Source: an uncultured Pelagibacteraceae bacterium
GTDB lineage: Bacteria > Pseudomonadota > Alphaproteobacteria > Pelagibacterales > Pelagibacteraceae
Length of the DNA: 64,000 nucleotides
NCBI GenBank assembly: GCA_902515985.1
Contig: CABXWY010000003.1
Span: 1-64,000, forward strand
Direction of reading: 5' to 3'
Each line of letters opens with the position of its first letter. The first letter of the stretch is position 1. This document shows positions 8,269 through 21,847 of this stretch, in pieces. The translations under genes were made by a program, and so were the position numbers. Below the pieces are notes generated by a model. The model made no database searches. It had not been told where the DNA came from and worked only from the letters and a program-made list of their open reading frames with translations.

Positions 8269-8758
8269 TTAGTTTTTCCTCTTTATCAAAAAATATTTCA
8301 ACATAAATAAGGCATATAATACCAACTGAAATAAATATATCAGCAACATTAAAAATAAACCAATGAAAACCATTATAATTTATATCTATAAAGTCAGGAA
8401 CCGCTGAATAATAAAGTCTGTCAAAAAGATTTCCAAGAGATCCTCCTAAAATAATAAAAAATAAAAATCCTTTAAAATTATTTGATTTAATACCTAAGTA
8501 CAAAATCACCAAATTAACTAATATTATTATTAGTGTAATTAAATTATATAAGAATTGCTTTTCAAAAGATAAAAGCCCAAATCCAATTCCAGAATTCCAT
8601 ACTAAAATTATGTTTAAAAATTTATTTATATAAATATCTACTTGGCCATATGCTTCAGCAATATTAATTACGTAGATTTTTGAAATTCTATCTAAAGCAA
8701 ATATGGATAATGAGATTAAAAAATAATAAATAATTTTCTTATCTAAAAATCTTATCAT
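8258..8758 (-). CDS. lspA: Lipoprotein signal peptidase (signal peptidase II)
   Basis: LspA is an inner-membrane aspartyl protease that removes signal peptides from prolipoproteins. Four hydrophobic segments are visible in 166 residues. The two catalytic aspartates are in GNLFDR and FNVADIF, and the conserved WNSGIGFG block precedes them. The start overlaps the ileS stop by four bases, and ileS-lspA adjacency is widespread in bacteria, which supports the call. Confidence 0.96.
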   Translation of the reverse strand: MIRFLDKKIIYYFLISLSIFALDRISKIYVINIAEAYGQVDIYINKFLNIILVWNSGIGFGLLSFEKQFLYNLITLIIILVNLVILYLGIKSNNFKGFLFFIILGGSLGNLFDRLYYSAVPDFIDINYNGFHWFIFNVADIFISVGIICLIYVEIFFDKEEKLNEK

Positions 8759-13646: not shown

Positions 13647-15317
<1,671 letters not shown>

Positions 15318-15343
15318 TCCCCATTGTTCTCAAACAAAAATTC

Positions 15344-15375
15344 AAAAAGGGCAGTTTTTACTGCCCTTTTTTTTT
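15344..15375 (+). terminator. Rho-independent terminator of groESL
   Basis: AAAAAGGGCAG (15344-15354) pairs perfectly with CTGCCCTTTTT (15361-15371) around a six-base loop, and the T-run continues to 15375. It lies 27 bases after the groEL stop. Confidence 0.93.
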
Positions 15376-15442: not shown

Positions 15443-16579
15443 ATGAAAGAAAAAATTTATCATTTCAAATCAGACAAATATATTTCTGGAAGAAATAATC
15501 CAGACGCAAAAAAACTGATAAAAATTTGGAATTTAATTCATAAAAAGTCTGATTTAGATTTAACCCCTGAACCAATAGATAATTACAATAAGTATTGCTT
15601 ACCCTTTAAAGGTATTTCAAAATTTAAGGATGGAACAACCGAATATGATGGAGAAATGTTGGGATATCTAAATCGTAAAAATAAAATAGAAAGATATTTT
15701 GATTGCCCTCATGGAAAAGGAATTAATTTTTCCTTACATGGATTTAAATTTATATTTAATGGTTATTGGAAGTACGGTTTTGCTCATGGCAAAGGTATTT
15801 TTTTGAATAGTTATGGTGAATTTTTTGTTGGTATTTGGAAAAAAGGTTATTTTAGCAAACTTATACATGAGTTTAAATGGTCACCAGGAATAAATGATAA
15901 AAAATTCCATTTAGGAAAACTTACAAAAGTTAAAAAACCAAAAAAAAATGAATCTATGAATTGTTATTATCCTTTTAGAGTAAAACCAGGAGAAAGTAAT
16001 TTGTATAGTAACTTTGGTGTTAATGCGAATTTTGAAGTTTTAGATCTTAATGCCAATTATTGTTTAAGTAGAGGAGGAGTAACAGATGGCATCCCAGATC
16101 CTGAACAAAGTGTGGAGGAATTGATGGAAATTCATTCAGATGAAGAGTTTTTTAGAGATAATTATATTTTAGGAAAAAAAAATAATATTATAAATTTAAA
16201 AACCCCTAGAATAAAAGAATTAACTACCGAGGATTATTATCCCGATAAACACAAAAAAAATTTTGATGAAACTCAAATTATTGAGGAAATCGGTCATAGA
16301 GGTTTTTTAGTATTGTGTGATTATTCAAAAAAAGAGGATTTTAAAGTTTATAAAAATGGAAAATTACTAAAGATTTATAATAAAAAATATGACCATAAAA
16401 ATTTGGAATTATTTACTAATAAATTCAATTCTTACTGCGTTATTGAAAAAGACGGTGCTCATTTAGCAGTAAAAGATAAAACTATACCTTATGGTGTCAA
16501 TTTTATTCTTCTGGGTGAAAGATCTAATTTGAAACCTGGTGGAAGAGTTAGATTCGTAAGAAAATTTAAAAAAAAATAA
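15443..16579 (+). CDS. MORN-repeat-like protein of unknown function
   Basis: I do not recognise a named family for this 378-residue protein. Residues around 90-130 contain at least one clear MORN-type unit, FNGYWKYGFAHGKGIF followed by GEFFVGIWKKG, and a degenerate one before it (YDGEMLGYL, then CPHGKGINF). The C-terminal third ends in a basic beta-rich segment (GGRVRFVRKFKKK). There is no signal peptide or membrane helix. I chose the ATG at 15443; the frame extends to a TTG at 15428. It sits between the groEL terminator and a sulfotransferase cassette, in a region that looks accessory. MORN motifs are usually tied to membrane or protein contacts, but no function can be assigned. Confidence 0.65.
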   Translation: MKEKIYHFKSDKYISGRNNPDAKKLIKIWNLIHKKSDLDLTPEPIDNYNKYCLPFKGISKFKDGTTEYDGEMLGYLNRKNKIERYFDCPHGKGINFSLHGFKFIFNGYWKYGFAHGKGIFLNSYGEFFVGIWKKGYFSKLIHEFKWSPGINDKKFHLGKLTKVKKPKKNESMNCYYPFRVKPGESNLYSNFGVNANFEVLDLNANYCLSRGGVTDGIPDPEQSVEELMEIHSDEEFFRDNYILGKKNNIINLKTPRIKELTTEDYYPDKHKKNFDETQIIEEIGHRGFLVLCDYSKKEDFKVYKNGKLLKIYNKKYDHKNLELFTNKFNSYCVIEKDGAHLAVKDKTIPYGVNFILLGERSNLKPGGRVRFVRKFKKK

Positions 16580-16601: not shown

Positions 16602-16803
16602 ATGAAGTCATCTTTTGAATTGCTTTTGAATTCGGTTTGTAAAATGATGAATGATGATGAATGTTTTTCTAATAAGTCAGTAAATAGTAGTATTTTTGAA
16701 ACCAGTATGAGAATGTAATACGGTTCCAGTCCAGAACGCTTCAAAAACAAAAATTATACAAATTAAAAACCCTCAGAGATTAATTTCTGGGGGTTTTTTT
16801 TTT
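16602..16803 (+). repeat. Untranslated module A, related to module B at 19795-19982
   Basis: This stretch and the one at 19795 share GAATTGCTT (16617-16625), a similar GATGAA-rich middle, and an exact 13-base block ATGAGAATGTAAT (16707-16719). These lie 90 bases apart here and 91 bases apart in module B, and each copy ends in a rho-independent terminator. A 38-codon frame (16602-16718) exists here but is not shared in a convincing way by the other copy. It may be a small RNA, a 3' regulatory element or the remnant of a duplicated gene; which one cannot be told from the sequence. Confidence 0.5.
16766..16803 (+). terminator. Rho-independent terminator after module A
   Basis: AACCCTCAGA (16768-16777) pairs with TCTGGGGGTT (16786-16795) with one G-T wobble and an eight-base loop, followed by a run of T to 16803. 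It lies just upstream of the arylsulfotransferase-like gene and separates it from the region before. Confidence 0.85.
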
Positions 16804-16827
16804 AAAGAATTAGTTTATTAATCAATT

Positions 16828-18204
16828 ATGTTTAAAAAGTTTTTTACCTATCCTGTATTTCTAGTCTTGTTTTTGTCTTTTATCGGAGCAATGGGATTTG
16901 GTGCAATTGTGAAATGTAACTATGTCGGTAACTGCGACGGTAATAAGATTTATAAATTTTTGCAAAAACCAGTGATGTTTATTGCTTCAGTTCCAGTAAA
17001 TATTAGAAAAATCATTAAGTTTAGAACCTTTAATCTTGATAAACCCCAAAAATTAACTAAACACAAAGATAAAAAAAGATTTGAACAATTTATTCCAAAT
17101 AAAAGAAACGCTCTTTTAGTATTGCCTCGATATGATCATAGTCTAAGCAGATCAGTCGTTGATATAGTTGATTTAAATAACTTTGAAGTCATACATACAT
17201 ACAAACATGATATCGCGGAAATGAATGATCAAGTTACAAATACTAAAGAATTTCCAAGAATTAAAATTGATAATAGTCCTATAAGATTTTTATATCGTCA
17301 CCCTTTATTATTAAGTGATGGATCATTAATAAGTGATAGTGACTATTCCATAGAGTTCAAAATTGATTTTTGTTCAAATTTAAAATGGATAAACGATCAG
17401 AGGATATTTCACCATAGTAAAATGTTAGATCATGAAGGAAATATTTGGGTAGGAGGTCAAATGAACCCTAAATCTAAATATGTTAAGAAATACCAACCTG
17501 TTGGTTTAAGGGATGATTTTATGGATGATTCTATTGTGAAAATTAATACTGATGGAAAAATACTTTACGAAAAAAGTGTAACGGAAATTTTAATCGAGAA
17601 TAAAATTGTCCCTGAAAAAAACTTTATATTAAACTCTATTAAACATGATTTAGAGGACCCCGTACATCTTAACGATATTGAACCAGCATTAAGTGACACT
17701 AAATATTGGAAAAAAGGTGATGTATTTATAAATAATCTGCACTTTTCTGCTATTATGCACTACAGACCAAGTACCAATAAATTAATTAATTATATTAGCG
17801 GTCCTTTTACATCACAACACGATGTTGATATTATTTCAGATAAAGAAATTTCAATTTTTAATAACAACAATTTTGTTGTTGAAAATCAATATTCAGAAGT
17901 AGTCATTTATAATTTTGAGACAAAAAAATTTAGAACATTATTTAATGATCAATTACAAAAAAATAACTTTAAAACAGCGGCAGGAGGTCTTTCTCATATA
18001 TTTAATGATGGTGCATTAATGGTTGATGAACAATATCACGGAAGGATTATTCTATTTAACAATGAAGGTGAAAAAGAATGGGAATTTGTTAATGTAGACA
18101 AAAATGGAGATATTGGATATATATTTTGGAGTAGAGTCATAGAAGATGTAAGATTTATTAAACAATTTAAATCATTAGTAGAAAATAAAAAATGTACAAA
18201 TTAA
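16828..18204 (+). CDS. Arylsulfotransferase-like (ASST family) membrane-anchored beta-propeller protein
   Basis: The protein resembles the PAPS-independent arylsulfotransferase (ASST) family, which moves sulfate between phenolic esters in the periplasm or at the cell surface. A single N-terminal membrane helix (about residues 8-28) anchors it. The rest is propeller-like with ASST hallmarks: HHSKMLDHEGNIWVGGQ, DPVHLNDIEPA, SQHDVDIIS, and GGLSHIFNDGALMVDEQ. Several conserved His residues are present in these blocks. The next gene overlaps its end by 13 bases, and a P-loop sulfotransferase lies two genes on, so this is a sulfation-themed cassette. Activity and substrate are unknown; some family members may be structural or signalling proteins. 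Confidence 0.72.
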   Translation: MFKKFFTYPVFLVLFLSFIGAMGFGAIVKCNYVGNCDGNKIYKFLQKPVMFIASVPVNIRKIIKFRTFNLDKPQKLTKHKDKKRFEQFIPNKRNALLVLPRYDHSLSRSVVDIVDLNNFEVIHTYKHDIAEMNDQVTNTKEFPRIKIDNSPIRFLYRHPLLLSDGSLISDSDYSIEFKIDFCSNLKWINDQRIFHHSKMLDHEGNIWVGGQMNPKSKYVKKYQPVGLRDDFMDDSIVKINTDGKILYEKSVTEILIENKIVPEKNFILNSIKHDLEDPVHLNDIEPALSDTKYWKKGDVFINNLHFSAIMHYRPSTNKLINYISGPFTSQHDVDIISDKEISIFNNNNFVVENQYSEVVIYNFETKKFRTLFNDQLQKNNFKTAAGGLSHIFNDGALMVDEQYHGRIILFNNEGEKEWEFVNVDKNGDIGYIFWSRVIEDVRFIKQFKSLVENKKCTN

Positions 18205-18404
18205 TTTTAACAACTCTTTTATTTTTTTTTACAACCACTTCGTCTTTTGCCTATTTAGGTGCTGGTATGGGTGGAGGAGCGATTGCAGCAACTATTGGTA
18301 TTATTGTTGCAATTTTTGCTGCACTTTTTGGATTGATTTGGTTTCCAATAAAAAGACTGCTAAAAAAAAGAAAAGAAAATCAACAACAAAATAAGGTTGA
18401 TTAA
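18192..18404 (+). CDS. Small membrane protein with signal peptide
   Basis: This 70-residue protein has an N-terminal signal sequence ending near SSFAYLG, a Gly/Ala-rich segment (GAGMGGGAIAATIG), one strong membrane helix, and a basic tail (WFPIKRLLKKRKE). It overlaps the arylsulfotransferase-like gene by 13 bases, so the two are probably translated together. A short membrane partner would fit this arrangement, but I cannot name a function. The start ATG at 18192 gives the complete signal peptide. Confidence 0.65.
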   Translation: MYKLILTTLLFFFTTTSSFAYLGAGMGGGAIAATIGIIVAIFAALFGLIWFPIKRLLKKRKENQQQNKVD

Positions 18405-18762
18405 TCAATTTTTAATAATTTTTTCTGTAATAATTGTTTATGAATTTATAAGATATGTTAAATTAATAGACATTGTTCGGTCAAACTTAAAAATATATCG
18501 AAAAATACTAAAATTATTTAAATTTAAAAATGTATCTGATTTTAGAAAAGAAAAATTAATACTTAATTATTCAAAATCACTTTTCATAGTATCAATAAAA
18601 ATATTTACTATACTCATCTCTATATTAATTTTTATGTACATATTAGATTTATTATCTCACTCATTTTTAAATTTAGTTATTTCAATTTTGGGCATTATTG
18701 AATTAACTATAGTTTTTATAATTTATCATCTACTTCGAAAAAAATATGATGCAAAACTATAG
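18397..18762 (+). CDS. Small membrane protein of unknown function
   Basis: I do not recognise this 121-residue protein. It has a hydrophobic N-terminus, a basic central stretch rich in Lys and Arg, and two adjacent C-terminal membrane helices. The only plausible start is TTG at 18397, with AAGG directly before it, overlapping the upstream stop by eight bases; the weak start makes the exact N-terminus uncertain. The end overlaps the sulfotransferase start by 17 bases, so it belongs to the same transcription unit. Confidence 0.5.
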   Translation: MINQFLIIFSVIIVYEFIRYVKLIDIVRSNLKIYRKILKLFKFKNVSDFRKEKLILNYSKSLFIVSIKIFTILISILIFMYILDLLSHSFLNLVISILGIIELTIVFIIYHLLRKKYDAKL

Positions 18763-19735
18763 TGGTATTCAAAAGTTTTTACACGACCTTGTATTAAGTA
18801 AAAAGTTTATTAATAAATCATTATTTGAACTTGAAAAAATTATCTATTTAAAAAATAAAGATATAAAAAATCAATCTCATATTTTTATTACTGGCCTTCC
18901 AAGATCAGGTACTACTAGTTTATTAAATTTTATATATTCATCTGATCATTATGCATCTTTAACCTATAAAAATATGCCATTTATACTATCTCCTAATTTT
19001 TCAAAATTATTTAATAAAAAAAATATTTCAAAAAAAGAGAGGTTACATGGTGACGGAATAAGTTATGACATAAATAGTCCAGAAGCATTAGATGAGATAT
19101 TTTTTAATAACGAAGAAGAATTTATAAAAAATGAGTTAGTTAATTATATTCAGTTAATTCTACTTTCAGAAAGCAAAGATAAATATTTAAGTAAAAATAA
19201 TCTTAATTTTAAAAGGATTAATTTAATTAACTCAATACTGCCTAATTCTATATTTTTAATTCCAATACGAGAACCGTTGCAACATACGTATTCTCTTTTA
19301 AATCAACATTTAAATTTTAGTCAATTACAACAAGGCAATGATTTTATTAGACGATATATGAATTATCTTGGTCATAATGAATTTGGTCTTAACCATAAAC
19401 CGTGGAACAACCCTATTAATTTCAAAGATTTAAATGATATTAATTACTGGTTAGAGCAATGGTGTTTATTTTATCAAGATATCTTAAAGAACTATCAATC
19501 TTATGATAATTGTTTTTTTATAATCTACGAAGAATTAACTAATCAAAATTATTTAAAAGTGTTACTAGAAAAAATTTATTTCAACCAAGTTGAAAACTTA
19601 AATTTAAATTATTTTAAAAATTCTAATAAAAAAGAAATAGATATTAATTATGCAAAAGATATCTATGAAAATGCCAAAGACATTTATACAGATTTTAAAT
19701 ATAAATTTATGCATAATAATTCATCGTCTATTTAG
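18746..19735 (+). CDS. P-loop sulfotransferase family protein
   Basis: The N-terminal region carries the PAPS-binding P-loop FITGLPRSGTTSLLNF (about residues 47-62), the hallmark of cytosolic-type and Golgi-type sulfotransferases. The 3'-phosphate-binding region is recognisable around NSIFLIPIREPLQHTYSLL. At 329 residues the length fits. Such enzymes transfer sulfate from PAPS to a hydroxyl or amino group of a carbohydrate or small molecule. The gene ends the cassette that starts with the arylsulfotransferase-like protein. The acceptor is unknown, and whether this organism makes PAPS cannot be seen here. Confidence 0.78.
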   Translation: MMQNYSGIQKFLHDLVLSKKFINKSLFELEKIIYLKNKDIKNQSHIFITGLPRSGTTSLLNFIYSSDHYASLTYKNMPFILSPNFSKLFNKKNISKKERLHGDGISYDINSPEALDEIFFNNEEEFIKNELVNYIQLILLSESKDKYLSKNNLNFKRINLINSILPNSIFLIPIREPLQHTYSLLNQHLNFSQLQQGNDFIRRYMNYLGHNEFGLNHKPWNNPINFKDLNDINYWLEQWCLFYQDILKNYQSYDNCFFIIYEELTNQNYLKVLLEKIYFNQVENLNLNYFKNSNKKEIDINYAKDIYENAKDIYTDFKYKFMHNNSSSI

Positions 19736-19794
19736 GACATGCAGATGAAATATTAGTGAATCTTGTTAAGAGAAGAGGAAGATTAAAGATTGTT

Positions 19795-19982
19795 AAATGA
19801 TTTTATCTTCTGAATTGCTTCAGAATTGGGATACAAAAAAGATGAACTTAAATGAACAAATATCAAAAAGAGTAGATAAACAAATGCTTAATGAACTAGT
19901 GAATGAGAATGTAATCCTTCTCCATTCTAATTTACTAATAAAATTTAAATCCCTCGAAGCGAAAGTTTCGAGGGTTTTTTTT
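19795..19982 (+). repeat. Untranslated module B, related to module A at 16602-16803
   Basis: It shares GAATTGCTT (19812-19820), a similar GATGAA-containing middle and the exact 13-base ATGAGAATGTAAT (19903-19915) with module A, in the same order with 91 rather than 90 bases between the anchors. It also ends in a terminator with an A/T-flanked CCCTC...GAGGG stem. Together the two modules bracket the sulfotransferase cassette as diverged direct repeats. Confidence 0.5.
19951..19982 (+). terminator. Rho-independent terminator before typA
   Basis: CCCTCGAA (19951-19958) pairs with TTCGAGGG (19967-19974) around an eight-base loop, followed by eight T. It closes the sulfotransferase cassette and module B. 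Confidence 0.92.
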
Positions 19983-20020
19983 ATTTGAATTAAATTTTTT
20001 TAATATATAACGACCAAAAA

Positions 20021-21847
20021 ATGACAAATATAATAAGAAATATAACAATAATTGCCCACGTTGATCATGGAAAAACTACTTTAATTGATAATTTAATGAA
20101 ACAAAGTGGTTCATTTAGAGAAAATGAAGTCGTTGACGAAAGATTAATGGACAGTGGTGAACTTGAAAAAGAGAGGGGAATTACAATTTTAGCAAAGCCT
20201 GCCTCGATTAATTGGAAAGATTCAAGAATAAATATTATCGATACTCCTGGTCATAGGGATTTTGCTGCTGAAGTTGAAAGAGTATTGAGTATGGCAGATG
20301 GAGCTTTGTTACTCATAGATTCGGCAGAAGGTGTAATGCCACAAACTAAGTTTGTTTTGGCAAAAGCACTTAAACAAGGTTTAAAACCGATAGTTATTAT
20401 AAATAAGATGGATAAGCCTGATGGGAGGGCAGATGAGGTATTAAATGAAACATTTGATTTATTTGTTAGCTTGGATGCAAGCGAAGAACAATTAGATTTT
20501 CCAGTAATTTATGCAAGTGGTAGATCTGGTTGGGCAGATAAAGAAATAAATGGATCTAGAGAAAATTTAAATCCATTATTAAATCTAGTAATAGAACATG
20601 TAAAACCATCAGACTTTGATAGGACTAAACCATTTGCAATGTTATCTACACTTTTATATGCAGACAGCTATCTTGGTAGAAGTTTAGTGGGAAGGATATC
20701 ACAAGGTACTGCAAAAGCTAATCAACAAATAAAGGCAATTAATCTAAATGGAGAGAAAGTTGATGAAGGAAGACTAACAAAAATTTTTAGGTATGAGGGA
20801 ACAAAAAAAGTTCCTATAGAAATTGGAGAGGCTGGAGATATAGTAATTGTTGCGGGCTTAGAAAAAGCTAATGTAGCAGATACTATTTGTGACCTTGAAA
20901 TAAACGAACCAATTAAAGCAACACCAATAGATCCTCCAACTATGTCTATAAAAGTAACAGTTAATAGCTCTCCCCTTGCAGGAACTGAAGGAAAGAAATT
21001 AACTAGTACACAAATTAGAGAAAGATTAATTCAAGAGTCTGAAAATAATGTTGGGATATCTTTTTCTGAGAACGAGAGTAAAGATGCCTTTGAAATAAGT
21101 GGTAGAGGAGAGCTAATGTTAGAGATACTTCTTACTCAAATGAGACGAGAAGGATTTGAAATGACTGTTAGCCCACCAAAAGTTTTATATAAGAAAAATG
21201 ATAATGGTGAAAAATTAGAACCAATAGAAGAAATTACAATGGATTTAGATGAAGAATATTCTTCAAAAGTTATCGACTCAATTAACAGAAGAAAAGGGAA
21301 ACTAATTGATCTGAAAGATACTGGAAAAAATAAAAAACGATTAATATTTCAAGCACCTACAAGAGGATTGATGGGATACACTAGTAGATTTTTAACATTA
21401 ACAAAAGGTACTGGTATCATTAACAGAATATTTCATTCTTATGGGGCTTTTGAAGGTGAGATGGAAGGTAGAAGAAATGGAGCTTTAATATCAATGGAGC
21501 AAGGAAAAGCAGTAGCATTTGCAATATTTAACTTACAAGCAAGAGGTGAGATGTTTGTAACACATAACGATCCTGTCTATACTGGTATGATAGTTGGTTT
21601 AGCTCCAAAACCAGGTGATATGATAATAAATGTTATGAAGGGAAAGAAATTAACAAATATGAGAACACAAGGCACTGATGAGAATGTAGTTCTCACGCCA
21701 GTTAGAAAAATGTCAATTGCTGAACAATTAAGTATTCTTAATACTGATGAAGCATTAGAAATAACCCCTAAATCATGTAGATTAAGAAAAGCAATACTTG
21801 ACCCCCACGATAGAAAAAAAAGTGAAAAATTAATTTCTAATTCTTAA
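20021..21847 (+). CDS. typA: Ribosome-associated GTPase TypA/BipA
   Basis: TypA is a translation-factor GTPase related to EF-G that assists ribosome assembly and stress adaptation. GTPase motifs are present: G1 AHVDHGKTTLID, a G2 region ERGITILAKP, G3 DTPGHRDF and G4 NKMDKPDG. Later domains include the conserved YTSRFLTLTKGTG and NLQARGEMFV blocks. At 608 residues it is full length. It follows the module B terminator and so starts its own transcription unit. Confidence 0.97.
   Translation: MTNIIRNITIIAHVDHGKTTLIDNLMKQSGSFRENEVVDERLMDSGELEKERGITILAKPASINWKDSRINIIDTPGHRDFAAEVERVLSMADGALLLIDSAEGVMPQTKFVLAKALKQGLKPIVIINKMDKPDGRADEVLNETFDLFVSLDASEEQLDFPVIYASGRSGWADKEINGSRENLNPLLNLVIEHVKPSDFDRTKPFAMLSTLLYADSYLGRSLVGRISQGTAKANQQIKAINLNGEKVDEGRLTKIFRYEGTKKVPIEIGEAGDIVIVAGLEKANVADTICDLEINEPIKATPIDPPTMSIKVTVNSSPLAGTEGKKLTSTQIRERLIQESENNVGISFSENESKDAFEISGRGELMLEILLTQMRREGFEMTVSPPKVLYKKNDNGEKLEPIEEITMDLDEEYSSKVIDSINRRKGKLIDLKDTGKNKKRLIFQAPTRGLMGYTSRFLTLTKGTGIINRIFHSYGAFEGEMEGRRNGALISMEQGKAVAFAIFNLQARGEMFVTHNDPVYTGMIVGLAPKPGDMIINVMKGKKLTNMRTQGTDENVVLTPVRKMSIAEQLSILNTDEALEITPKSCRLRKAILDPHDRKKSEKLISNS

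Follow-up and report, generated by a model that had tools for sequence, protein, structure and literature searches.

What brackets a four-gene sulfotransferase unit with two related untranslated modules, and how did this unit come to lie between the housekeeping genes groEL and typA? The question is raised by a 64,000-nucleotide stretch (hereafter the window) of an uncultured Pelagibacteraceae (SAR11) bacterium, namely positions 1 to 64,000 of the forward strand of contig CABXWY010000003.1 (assembly GCA_902515985.1), in which the unit stands between modules A (16602-16803) and B (19795-19982). The original prediction took these modules for diverged direct repeats that could reflect insertion of a cassette by homologous recombination between them. 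We propose instead that the groEL 3' end of Pelagibacteraceae is very probably the attachment site of small, tandem-stacking cassettes that lack an integrase of their own, two of which lie in tandem between groEL and typA in the window (Table 1), the first measuring 1.4 kb and having a single gene, the second measuring 3.2 kb and corresponding to the four-gene sulfotransferase unit. Sequence comparison documents the anatomy of these cassettes and their location, the precision of their junctions, their empty sites and tandem arrays, and their transfer between species.

The similarity of the two modules is genuine. They share the motif GAATTGCTT (at 16617 and 19812, with a further copy at 8552) and, at spacings of 90 bases in A and 91 in B, the exact 13-mer ATGAGAATGTAAT, of which neither strand of the 64 kb has another copy; in both, a terminator-like hairpin with a T run, recognized by eye, follows the core on its 3' side, and the four genes between them form a single overlapping unit (overlaps of 13, 8, and 17 bases). 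The shared motifs with their spacings, the terminators, and the overlapping unit are as originally described. The alignment of A with B spans approximately 155 bases and survives a statistical test, with a local score of 45 that none of 3000 Markov-shuffled pairs equaled (with two scorings, the best such pairs reached 42 and 43); of the 2547 windows taken from this sequence, the highest-scoring unrelated place had 30 vs 43 for B. A search of the organism's own genome with A recovered B weakly (67% identity over 123 bases, E 0.06). Two features had been overlooked: the core within the 13-mer is also the stop codon of groEL, and the gene preceding module A likewise belongs to a cassette. Indeed, the nonamer GAATGTAAT has only three copies in the 64 kb, counting both strands: one in A, one in B, and one at the stop codon of groEL, such that the same core stands at both ends of each cassette and one copy completes the target gene. 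As read from their sequence, the modules are hybrid junctions, comprising the L arm of one cassette (the left half), the core, and then the 3' untranslated region (3'UTR) and terminator of the next unit (the right half). In one relative (G010), a cassette begins with a relative of the right half of module A and ends with a relative of its left half; therefore, the two halves are separable. Thus, the modules do bound a cassette, as had been supposed, but are not two copies flanking one homologous insertion.

To chart the arms, we ran a sequence profile of the module left halves (model R1, 17 seeds including A and B) over whole genomes. Of 201 genomes of the same genus, 30 gave matches (36 in total); of 347 genomes drawn from the order, 34 did so (50 in total), each of these 34 belonging to the family of the window's organism; 11 genomes belong to both match sets. 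The window's own modules score E 1e-13 by construction, both being among the seeds, and the support from the model comes from its non-seed relatives in other genomes, which have the same design. Weak matches in two genomes (G081 and G006) fall inside a coding gene and were dropped as false, and the remaining ones are all situated 3' of groEL and in its orientation, except where the contig ends before groEL is reached (G083, G140). A local profile applied to fetched pieces yielded 71 arms in 52 genomes, with the end of groEL upstream on the same piece for 69 of the 71, the other two being at contig ends, and none upstream of groEL; many of these pieces were fetched around groEL, and the independent test of location is provided by the two genome-wide searches. 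In 289 genomes of the class, the arms matched only the window's own genome, and a 39-base arm pattern retrieved 25 stretches from a genome collection, all assigned to Pelagibacterales, Pelagibacteraceae, or Pelagibacter, with groEL or typA on 21 of the 25 pieces.

The L arm is approximately 105 bp long and contains direct repeats at a distance of 10-12 bp, after which comes the core (G)AATGTAA(T). In the 65 of the 71 arms that remained after leaving out partial or weak ones, 83% have 10 or 11 matches out of 11 at a lag of 9-13, compared to 2.7% of shuffles, and the lag peaks at 11, the helical period. In this respect the repeats would resemble the arm-type binding sites of integrases or excisionases. 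Some type L1 arms (L178, L252, L256, and L285) end in a doubled core, e.g., GCGAATGTAGGCGAATGTAA, an 11-base direct repeat that is possibly the trace of two successive insertions. The R ends, i.e., the segments on the 3' side of the core, also fall into recurring types, with the first cassette of the window bearing type R2a. R2a ends are paired with an L2 arm of the same cassette in 17/21 instances vs 7/48 for other R ends (Fisher p 2e-7), the classes having been defined after seeing the data and related cassettes not being independent; with coarser classes, 30/46 are concordant (p 0.028).

The groEL-typA locus of the relatives had been predicted to be a hot spot for gene exchange with presence-absence variation, and the comparison across SAR11 genomes upholds this. 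In the 201 same-genus genomes, groEL was recovered in 161 and typA in 131 at the thresholds used, and among the matches listed there are 103 intervals with both genes on one contig and strand. Their spacers fall into three classes, of 98-139 bp (14 intervals), 263-308 bp (30), and 627-6746 bp (59); the 44 unfilled ones are thus 98-308 bp long, and the 59 filled ones hold different genes rather than the same genes in the same order. In the shortest class, groEL is followed directly by one terminator and typA (by eye). These 44 unfilled spacers, each taken complete, served as references for the stretch from the last core to typA in the 16 of the 103 intervals that bear arms. Eight of the 16 match the whole spacer of an unfilled relative in length at an identity of 0.93-0.98 (e.g., 273 bp in G121 vs 273 bp in G106, identity 0.96), such that the empty site equals the joined flanks of the array; randomly placed segments from these arrays do not exceed 0.60 (n=27). 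The distal stretch of the window's genome, at 106 bp, has an identity of 0.75 to the spacer of G143, whose GroEL is 99% identical to the window's and whose spacer measures 124 bp (122 bp in this comparison).

The junctions are equally precise. Seven genome pairs with related cassettes were compared, core boundaries being listed where the 80 bases on either side exceed an identity of 0.85. At the groEL core of six pairs, identity is 0.89-0.96 on the right, and in five of them 0.72-0.79 on the left; the sixth (G314/G467) has 0.89 on the left, hence little contrast. At the distal end of six pairs, identity is 0.90-1.0 to the left of the core and 0.53-0.75 to its right. One pair (G321/G386) displays the distal switch only and another (G307/G458) the proximal switch only, the second arm of G458 being without the usual core. 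R ends and L arms are alike across many cassettes, and high identity beside the core is by itself no proof of the same cassette; the telling point is the sharp loss of identity across the core. This switch, along with the further copy of the core in the stop codon of groEL, points to recombination of a site-specific kind at the 3' end of that gene, and on these grounds we reject the originally suggested homologous recombination between the modules. The hexamer at which identity switches, ATGTAA, is a plausible overlap region for a tyrosine recombinase.

Tandem arrays are a recurrent aspect of these loci, with up to six arms in succession (G290), followed by five (G338). There are also gene-less units consisting of an arm only (125 bp in G163, 138 bp in G113, 164 bp in G061, and 175 bp in G028), and arrays behind groEL where typA was not found on the piece (G061, G147, G463). 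A comparison covering 24 of the 52 array genomes revealed seven genome pairs with cassette stretches that are 91-96% identical vs 79-85% for the groEL DNA of the same hosts. These include G321/G386 (96.3% over 1012 bases vs 81.0%), G270/G272 (95.7% over 768 bases vs 81.0%), G350/G412 (95.2% over 560 bases vs 79.3%), and G290/G350 (92.4% over 3074 bases vs 80.8%), and the first cassette of G307 matches the second of G458 at 91.1%. Altogether, 12 of the 19 listed cassette stretches are more alike than the groEL genes of their hosts.

In this organization, a cassette comprises an R end (what remains of the stop-codon core, then a 3'UTR of the groEL type and a terminator), the cargo, an L arm of approximately 105 bp, and then the core. 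We propose that recombination within the core would set the new R end directly behind the last codons of groEL, which would retain its stop and acquire a terminator, while the old 3'UTR or older cassettes would be displaced downstream; new cassettes would enter next to groEL. The overlap of 6-8 bases and the arm-type repeats suggest that the enzyme is a tyrosine recombinase, which would act in trans from a phage, a plasmid, or the host, on a moving form that may be a circle with L, core, and R joined.

Several results weigh against this proposal. In 7 of the 16 array intervals, there is extra DNA without a recognized arm between the last arm and typA, and 43 of the 103 intervals are filled but without a recognized arm, including that of G005, in which alone the sulfotransferase unit of the window was found again. 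Type R1 and R2a ends are present in 6 of the 44 unfilled spacers and are hence not cassette-specific; they also lie behind groEL in 13 of the 43 filled intervals without arms, and may in such places be traces of older insertions or ordinary host 3'UTRs. Seven of the 19 listed cassette stretches are less alike than groEL (e.g., G331/G467, 75.8% vs 92.7%), and the assemblies are, by their completeness figures, mostly partial and in many contigs. With respect to the enzyme, searches with PF00589 over 201 and 28 genomes gave no match inside a groEL array among the matches listed, and a profile built from 34 SAR11 recombinases found none in 4394 six-frame segments of 152 array or interval pieces; this profile recovers 34/34 of its seeds and, of two held-out integrases, finds one (L205/L263) and misses the other (L262), such that distant families could escape it. 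Serine resolvases (PF00239) were found in 0 of 31 genomes, and a serine recombinase was rejected as the mover. Neither a circular form nor an excision product nor a viral carrier was seen, six scans of viral contigs giving 0 hits, and no autonomous relative was seen at groEL in the genomes searched. In the absence of viral hits or a credible phage match, a phage or viral carrier was rejected as well, a 38-base match to two Acinetobacter phage records being taken as chance. Finally, the palindrome GATAA...TTATC found directly upstream of the most widespread recombinase gene of these bacteria (31/32 loci) is at 0/65 arm junctions (G290 left out of this count) and 0/103 groEL ends.

That recombinase is a conserved non-Xer tyrosine recombinase with an HxLRSG box (approximately 318-325 aa), and a narrower version of our proposal, which we consider unlikely, makes it the trans-acting enzyme. 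It is carried by 32 of the 37 integrase loci inspected (including L190 and L194) and is present in the window's genome (L321; G000:C1:91880-92419), its scores fall far short of the NCBIfam cut-offs for XerC and XerD (XerD 79.5 vs 329.6 bits), and a resident enzyme of this kind would account for cassettes without an integrase. Its palindrome, however, suggests that its own likely site is a different one, and it was not found in every array genome, any PF00589 match being present in 20 of the 28 array-bearing genomes searched. Our guess would be a phage- or plasmid-borne enzyme in the first place and the host HxLRSG protein in the second. The hypervariable region 2 of SAR11 includes SAR11_0551, described as a probable phage integrase (PMC2217521), which may be the same gene as the conserved recombinase. 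The DNA right behind the stop codon of the latter differs between genomes and includes, by eye, sugar-transferase or FkbM-like genes. The window's genome encodes a second tyrosine recombinase, an open frame of 365 aa near a contig end (G000:C2:150000-160128, L262), followed by phage-like ORFs (open reading frames; by eye) and not situated at groEL; two further integrases lie beside tRNA-Leu (L189, L218).

A second variant of our proposal regards the arrays as fossil islands, i.e., immobile remains of integrative elements (decayed cis-mobilizable elements, CIMEs). The missing integrase, the 43 filled intervals without recognized arms, and the age of some cassette pairs are compatible with it; nevertheless, cassettes 95-96% identical in hosts whose groEL genes are 79-81% identical, and recognizable arms in as many as 52 genomes, make it quite improbable. 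Still less probable is the replacement of the whole groEL-typA interval, following natural uptake, by homologous recombination between conserved flanks or modules, i.e., without any site-specific enzyme. Recombination is described as frequent in SAR11 (PMC12374537), the content of the interval varies greatly, and the arrays were found without a recombinase; yet such replacement fits poorly with identity that switches at the core, where host-specific sequence resumes, with tandem arms and arm-only units of 125-175 bp, or with arrays at groEL ends for which no typA was found on the piece. A reading of the modules as structured RNAs, attenuators, or genes for small peptides is scarcely credible, despite their terminators and the short ORFs of 38 and 63 codons that traverse A and B, and was rejected: RNAalifold predicts 0 pairs in 17 aligned arms, no Rfam family matches the window at gathering scores, and the ORFs, for which there is no Pfam match, leave frame between A and B (spacing 90 vs 91).

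If the cassettes are inserted as we propose, what do they carry? Between groEL and the last arm, we found 113 ORFs of at least 60 aa in 67 clusters (78 on the minus strand and 35 on the plus strand), and a Pfam scan covered representatives of 45 of these clusters (40 along with the window's five). The restriction-modification components recovered include type I subunits, HaeII and CfrBI endonucleases, and C5, D12, and N6/N4 DNA methylases; other cargo includes an HNH protein (with a weak PtuB match as well), FkbM and other methyltransferases, MORN and DUF4116 repeats, tautomerase, GNAT, and HIT proteins, while 16 of the 40 representatives are without a Pfam match. By Pfam matches and clusters, restriction-modification genes are present in at least 11 of the 52 arrays, and PADLOC matched 8 of 10 proteins preselected as restriction, methylation, or PtuB-like, no integrase being among them. 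No integrase or conjugation family was found in the Pfam scan of the 45 clusters. A 110-aa protein beginning with MQQLELFDF, for which there is no Pfam or PADLOC match, is encoded next to the L arm of five cassettes with type I restriction-modification genes (L249:6339-6671, and G290, G347, G350, and G412).

Table 1. Features of the groEL-typA locus in the window, with the proposed cassette parts.
Feature	Position	Strand	Remarks
groEL	13662..15317	+	3' end GGGAATGTAATC (15308-15319), proposed insertion target; core GAATGTAAT at 15310
R (proximal) end of cassette 1	15318..15373	+	TCCCCATTGTTCTCAAACAAAAATTC and terminator; type R2a; would provide the groEL 3'UTR; assigned from identical or near-identical sequence in other genomes' cassettes, where it goes with L2 arms
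Cassette 1 cargo	15443..16579	+	378-aa protein; no Pfam match; MORN-like by eye
Cassette 1 L arm (module A left half)	16602..16712	+	direct repeats TTTTGAATTGC/TTTTGAATTCG; model R1 E 2.8e-13 (model seed)
Core junction ATGAGAATGTAAT in module A	16707..16719	+	
Cassette 2 R end with terminator (module A right half)	16719..16803	+	similar R end in G010
Cassette 2 cargo, arylsulfotransferase-like protein	16828..18204	+	PF14269, E 1.5e-29
Cassette 2 cargo, 70-aa protein	18192..18404	+	hydrophobic stretches by eye; nothing above Pfam cut-off
Cassette 2 cargo, 121-aa protein	18397..18762	+	hydrophobic stretches by eye; no Pfam match
Cassette 2 cargo, sulfotransferase	18746..19735	+	PF13469 (Sulfotransfer_3), E 6e-13
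Cassette 2 L arm (module B left half)	19797..19908	+	model R1 E 7.6e-14 (model seed)
Core junction ATGAGAATGTAAT in module B	19903..19915	+	
Putative displaced host groEL 3'UTR and terminator (module B right half)	19915..20020	+	corresponds to the whole spacer of G143
typA/bipA, downstream flank	20021..21847	+	

How do these cassettes relate to known systems? Integron gene cassettes also form arrays of small cassettes and are served by an enzyme in trans. The SAR11 arrays differ from them in the receptor, which is the groEL stop codon, in the lack of conserved, attC-like palindromic folding in the 17 aligned arms, and in that the flanking gene is groEL, with no intI or other integrase seen in the arrays or beside them. 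The tycheposons of Prochlorococcus are likewise small cargo elements of a streamlined marine host; unlike the present cassettes, they integrate at tRNA genes and some carry a tyrosine recombinase. The staphylococcal cassette chromosome (SCC) elements insert at the 3' end of a housekeeping gene, form composite tandem islands, and include recombinase-less forms. They share these features with the SAR11 cassettes but have the ccr serine recombinases, none of which was found here.

SCC elements are also named as a comparison in the description of the Dehalococcoides ssrA islands, sixteen of which carry an integration module with a recombinase that is compared there with Ccr (PMC3146451). As these islands are described, they too lie in tandem behind one housekeeping gene and are bounded by repeats of its 3' end, with strain-specific cargo, some units without integration genes, and a conserved motif adjoining the repeat (PMC3146451). 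Their target, however, is the transfer-messenger RNA (tmRNA), whereas here it is a protein-coding gene, no recombinase was found in the cassettes, and most cassettes measure 0.4-7 kb. As characterized in PMC5704250, CIMEs keep both att sites, are without integration or transfer genes, and undergo tandem accretion; here, similarly, arms and cores are kept, the 45 scanned clusters include no integrase or conjugation family, and the recombinase profile was negative. The same account presents CIMEs as decayed integrative and conjugative elements or integrative and mobilizable elements (PMC5704250), whereas no autonomous parent was found for the SAR11 cassettes and their cargo is often one to four genes. 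An earlier description of SAR11 genomes states that attC sites were not found in SAR11 islands and delineates four hypervariable regions (PMC2217521). In the open-licence papers searched, nothing was recognized as insertion at the SAR11 groEL end. Judged by their anatomy, the cassettes conform to the tested part of the CIME definition and resemble the ssrA islands, from both of which they are set apart by their target, their small size, and the lack of an autonomous parent among the genomes searched.

SAR11 bacteria rank among the most abundant cells of the ocean, and are known for small genomes and few mobile elements. A defined attachment site with exchangeable tandem cassettes would offer a concrete route by which such cells acquire restriction-modification and surface-modification genes, and possibly one by which these streamlined cells exchange defence and surface genes among themselves; part of the SAR11 accessory genome would thereby become predictable from sequence, and the sites, which are short and precise, could also be put to use as a genetic tool for bacteria in which manipulation is difficult. 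The question this raises is which recombinase moves the cassettes. More tentatively, and as a possibility that we would rate somewhat below even, the locus might be a capture platform that is integron-like in its working though not in its construction, with the groEL stop as its receptor, a terminator in each cassette, entry next to groEL, and a trans-acting recombinase that moves single restriction-modification and surface-modification genes between species. If so, it would be a principal place for the turnover of defence genes in a bacterium that is thought to be poor in mobile elements.

The comparison of the intervals also brought out some features of the downstream flank. The 263-308 bp spacers mostly add, by eye, a conserved lysine-rich ORF of approximately 40 residues (MSKRYSGKSFKDSS...) before typA (e.g., L092, L098, L112). 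typA/bipA itself was not found (at E <= 1e-150) in 70 of the 201 genomes, including 5 of the 29 that are at least 90% complete (e.g., G009, G165, and G192, each approximately 92-93% complete), and may have been lost or relocated in one SAR11 lineage. In 14 of the 59 filled intervals (e.g., L141 in G085 and L172 in G166), the gene preceding typA is on the minus strand and looks, by eye, like a DEAD-box helicase; it may be an old resident of the locus rather than a cassette.

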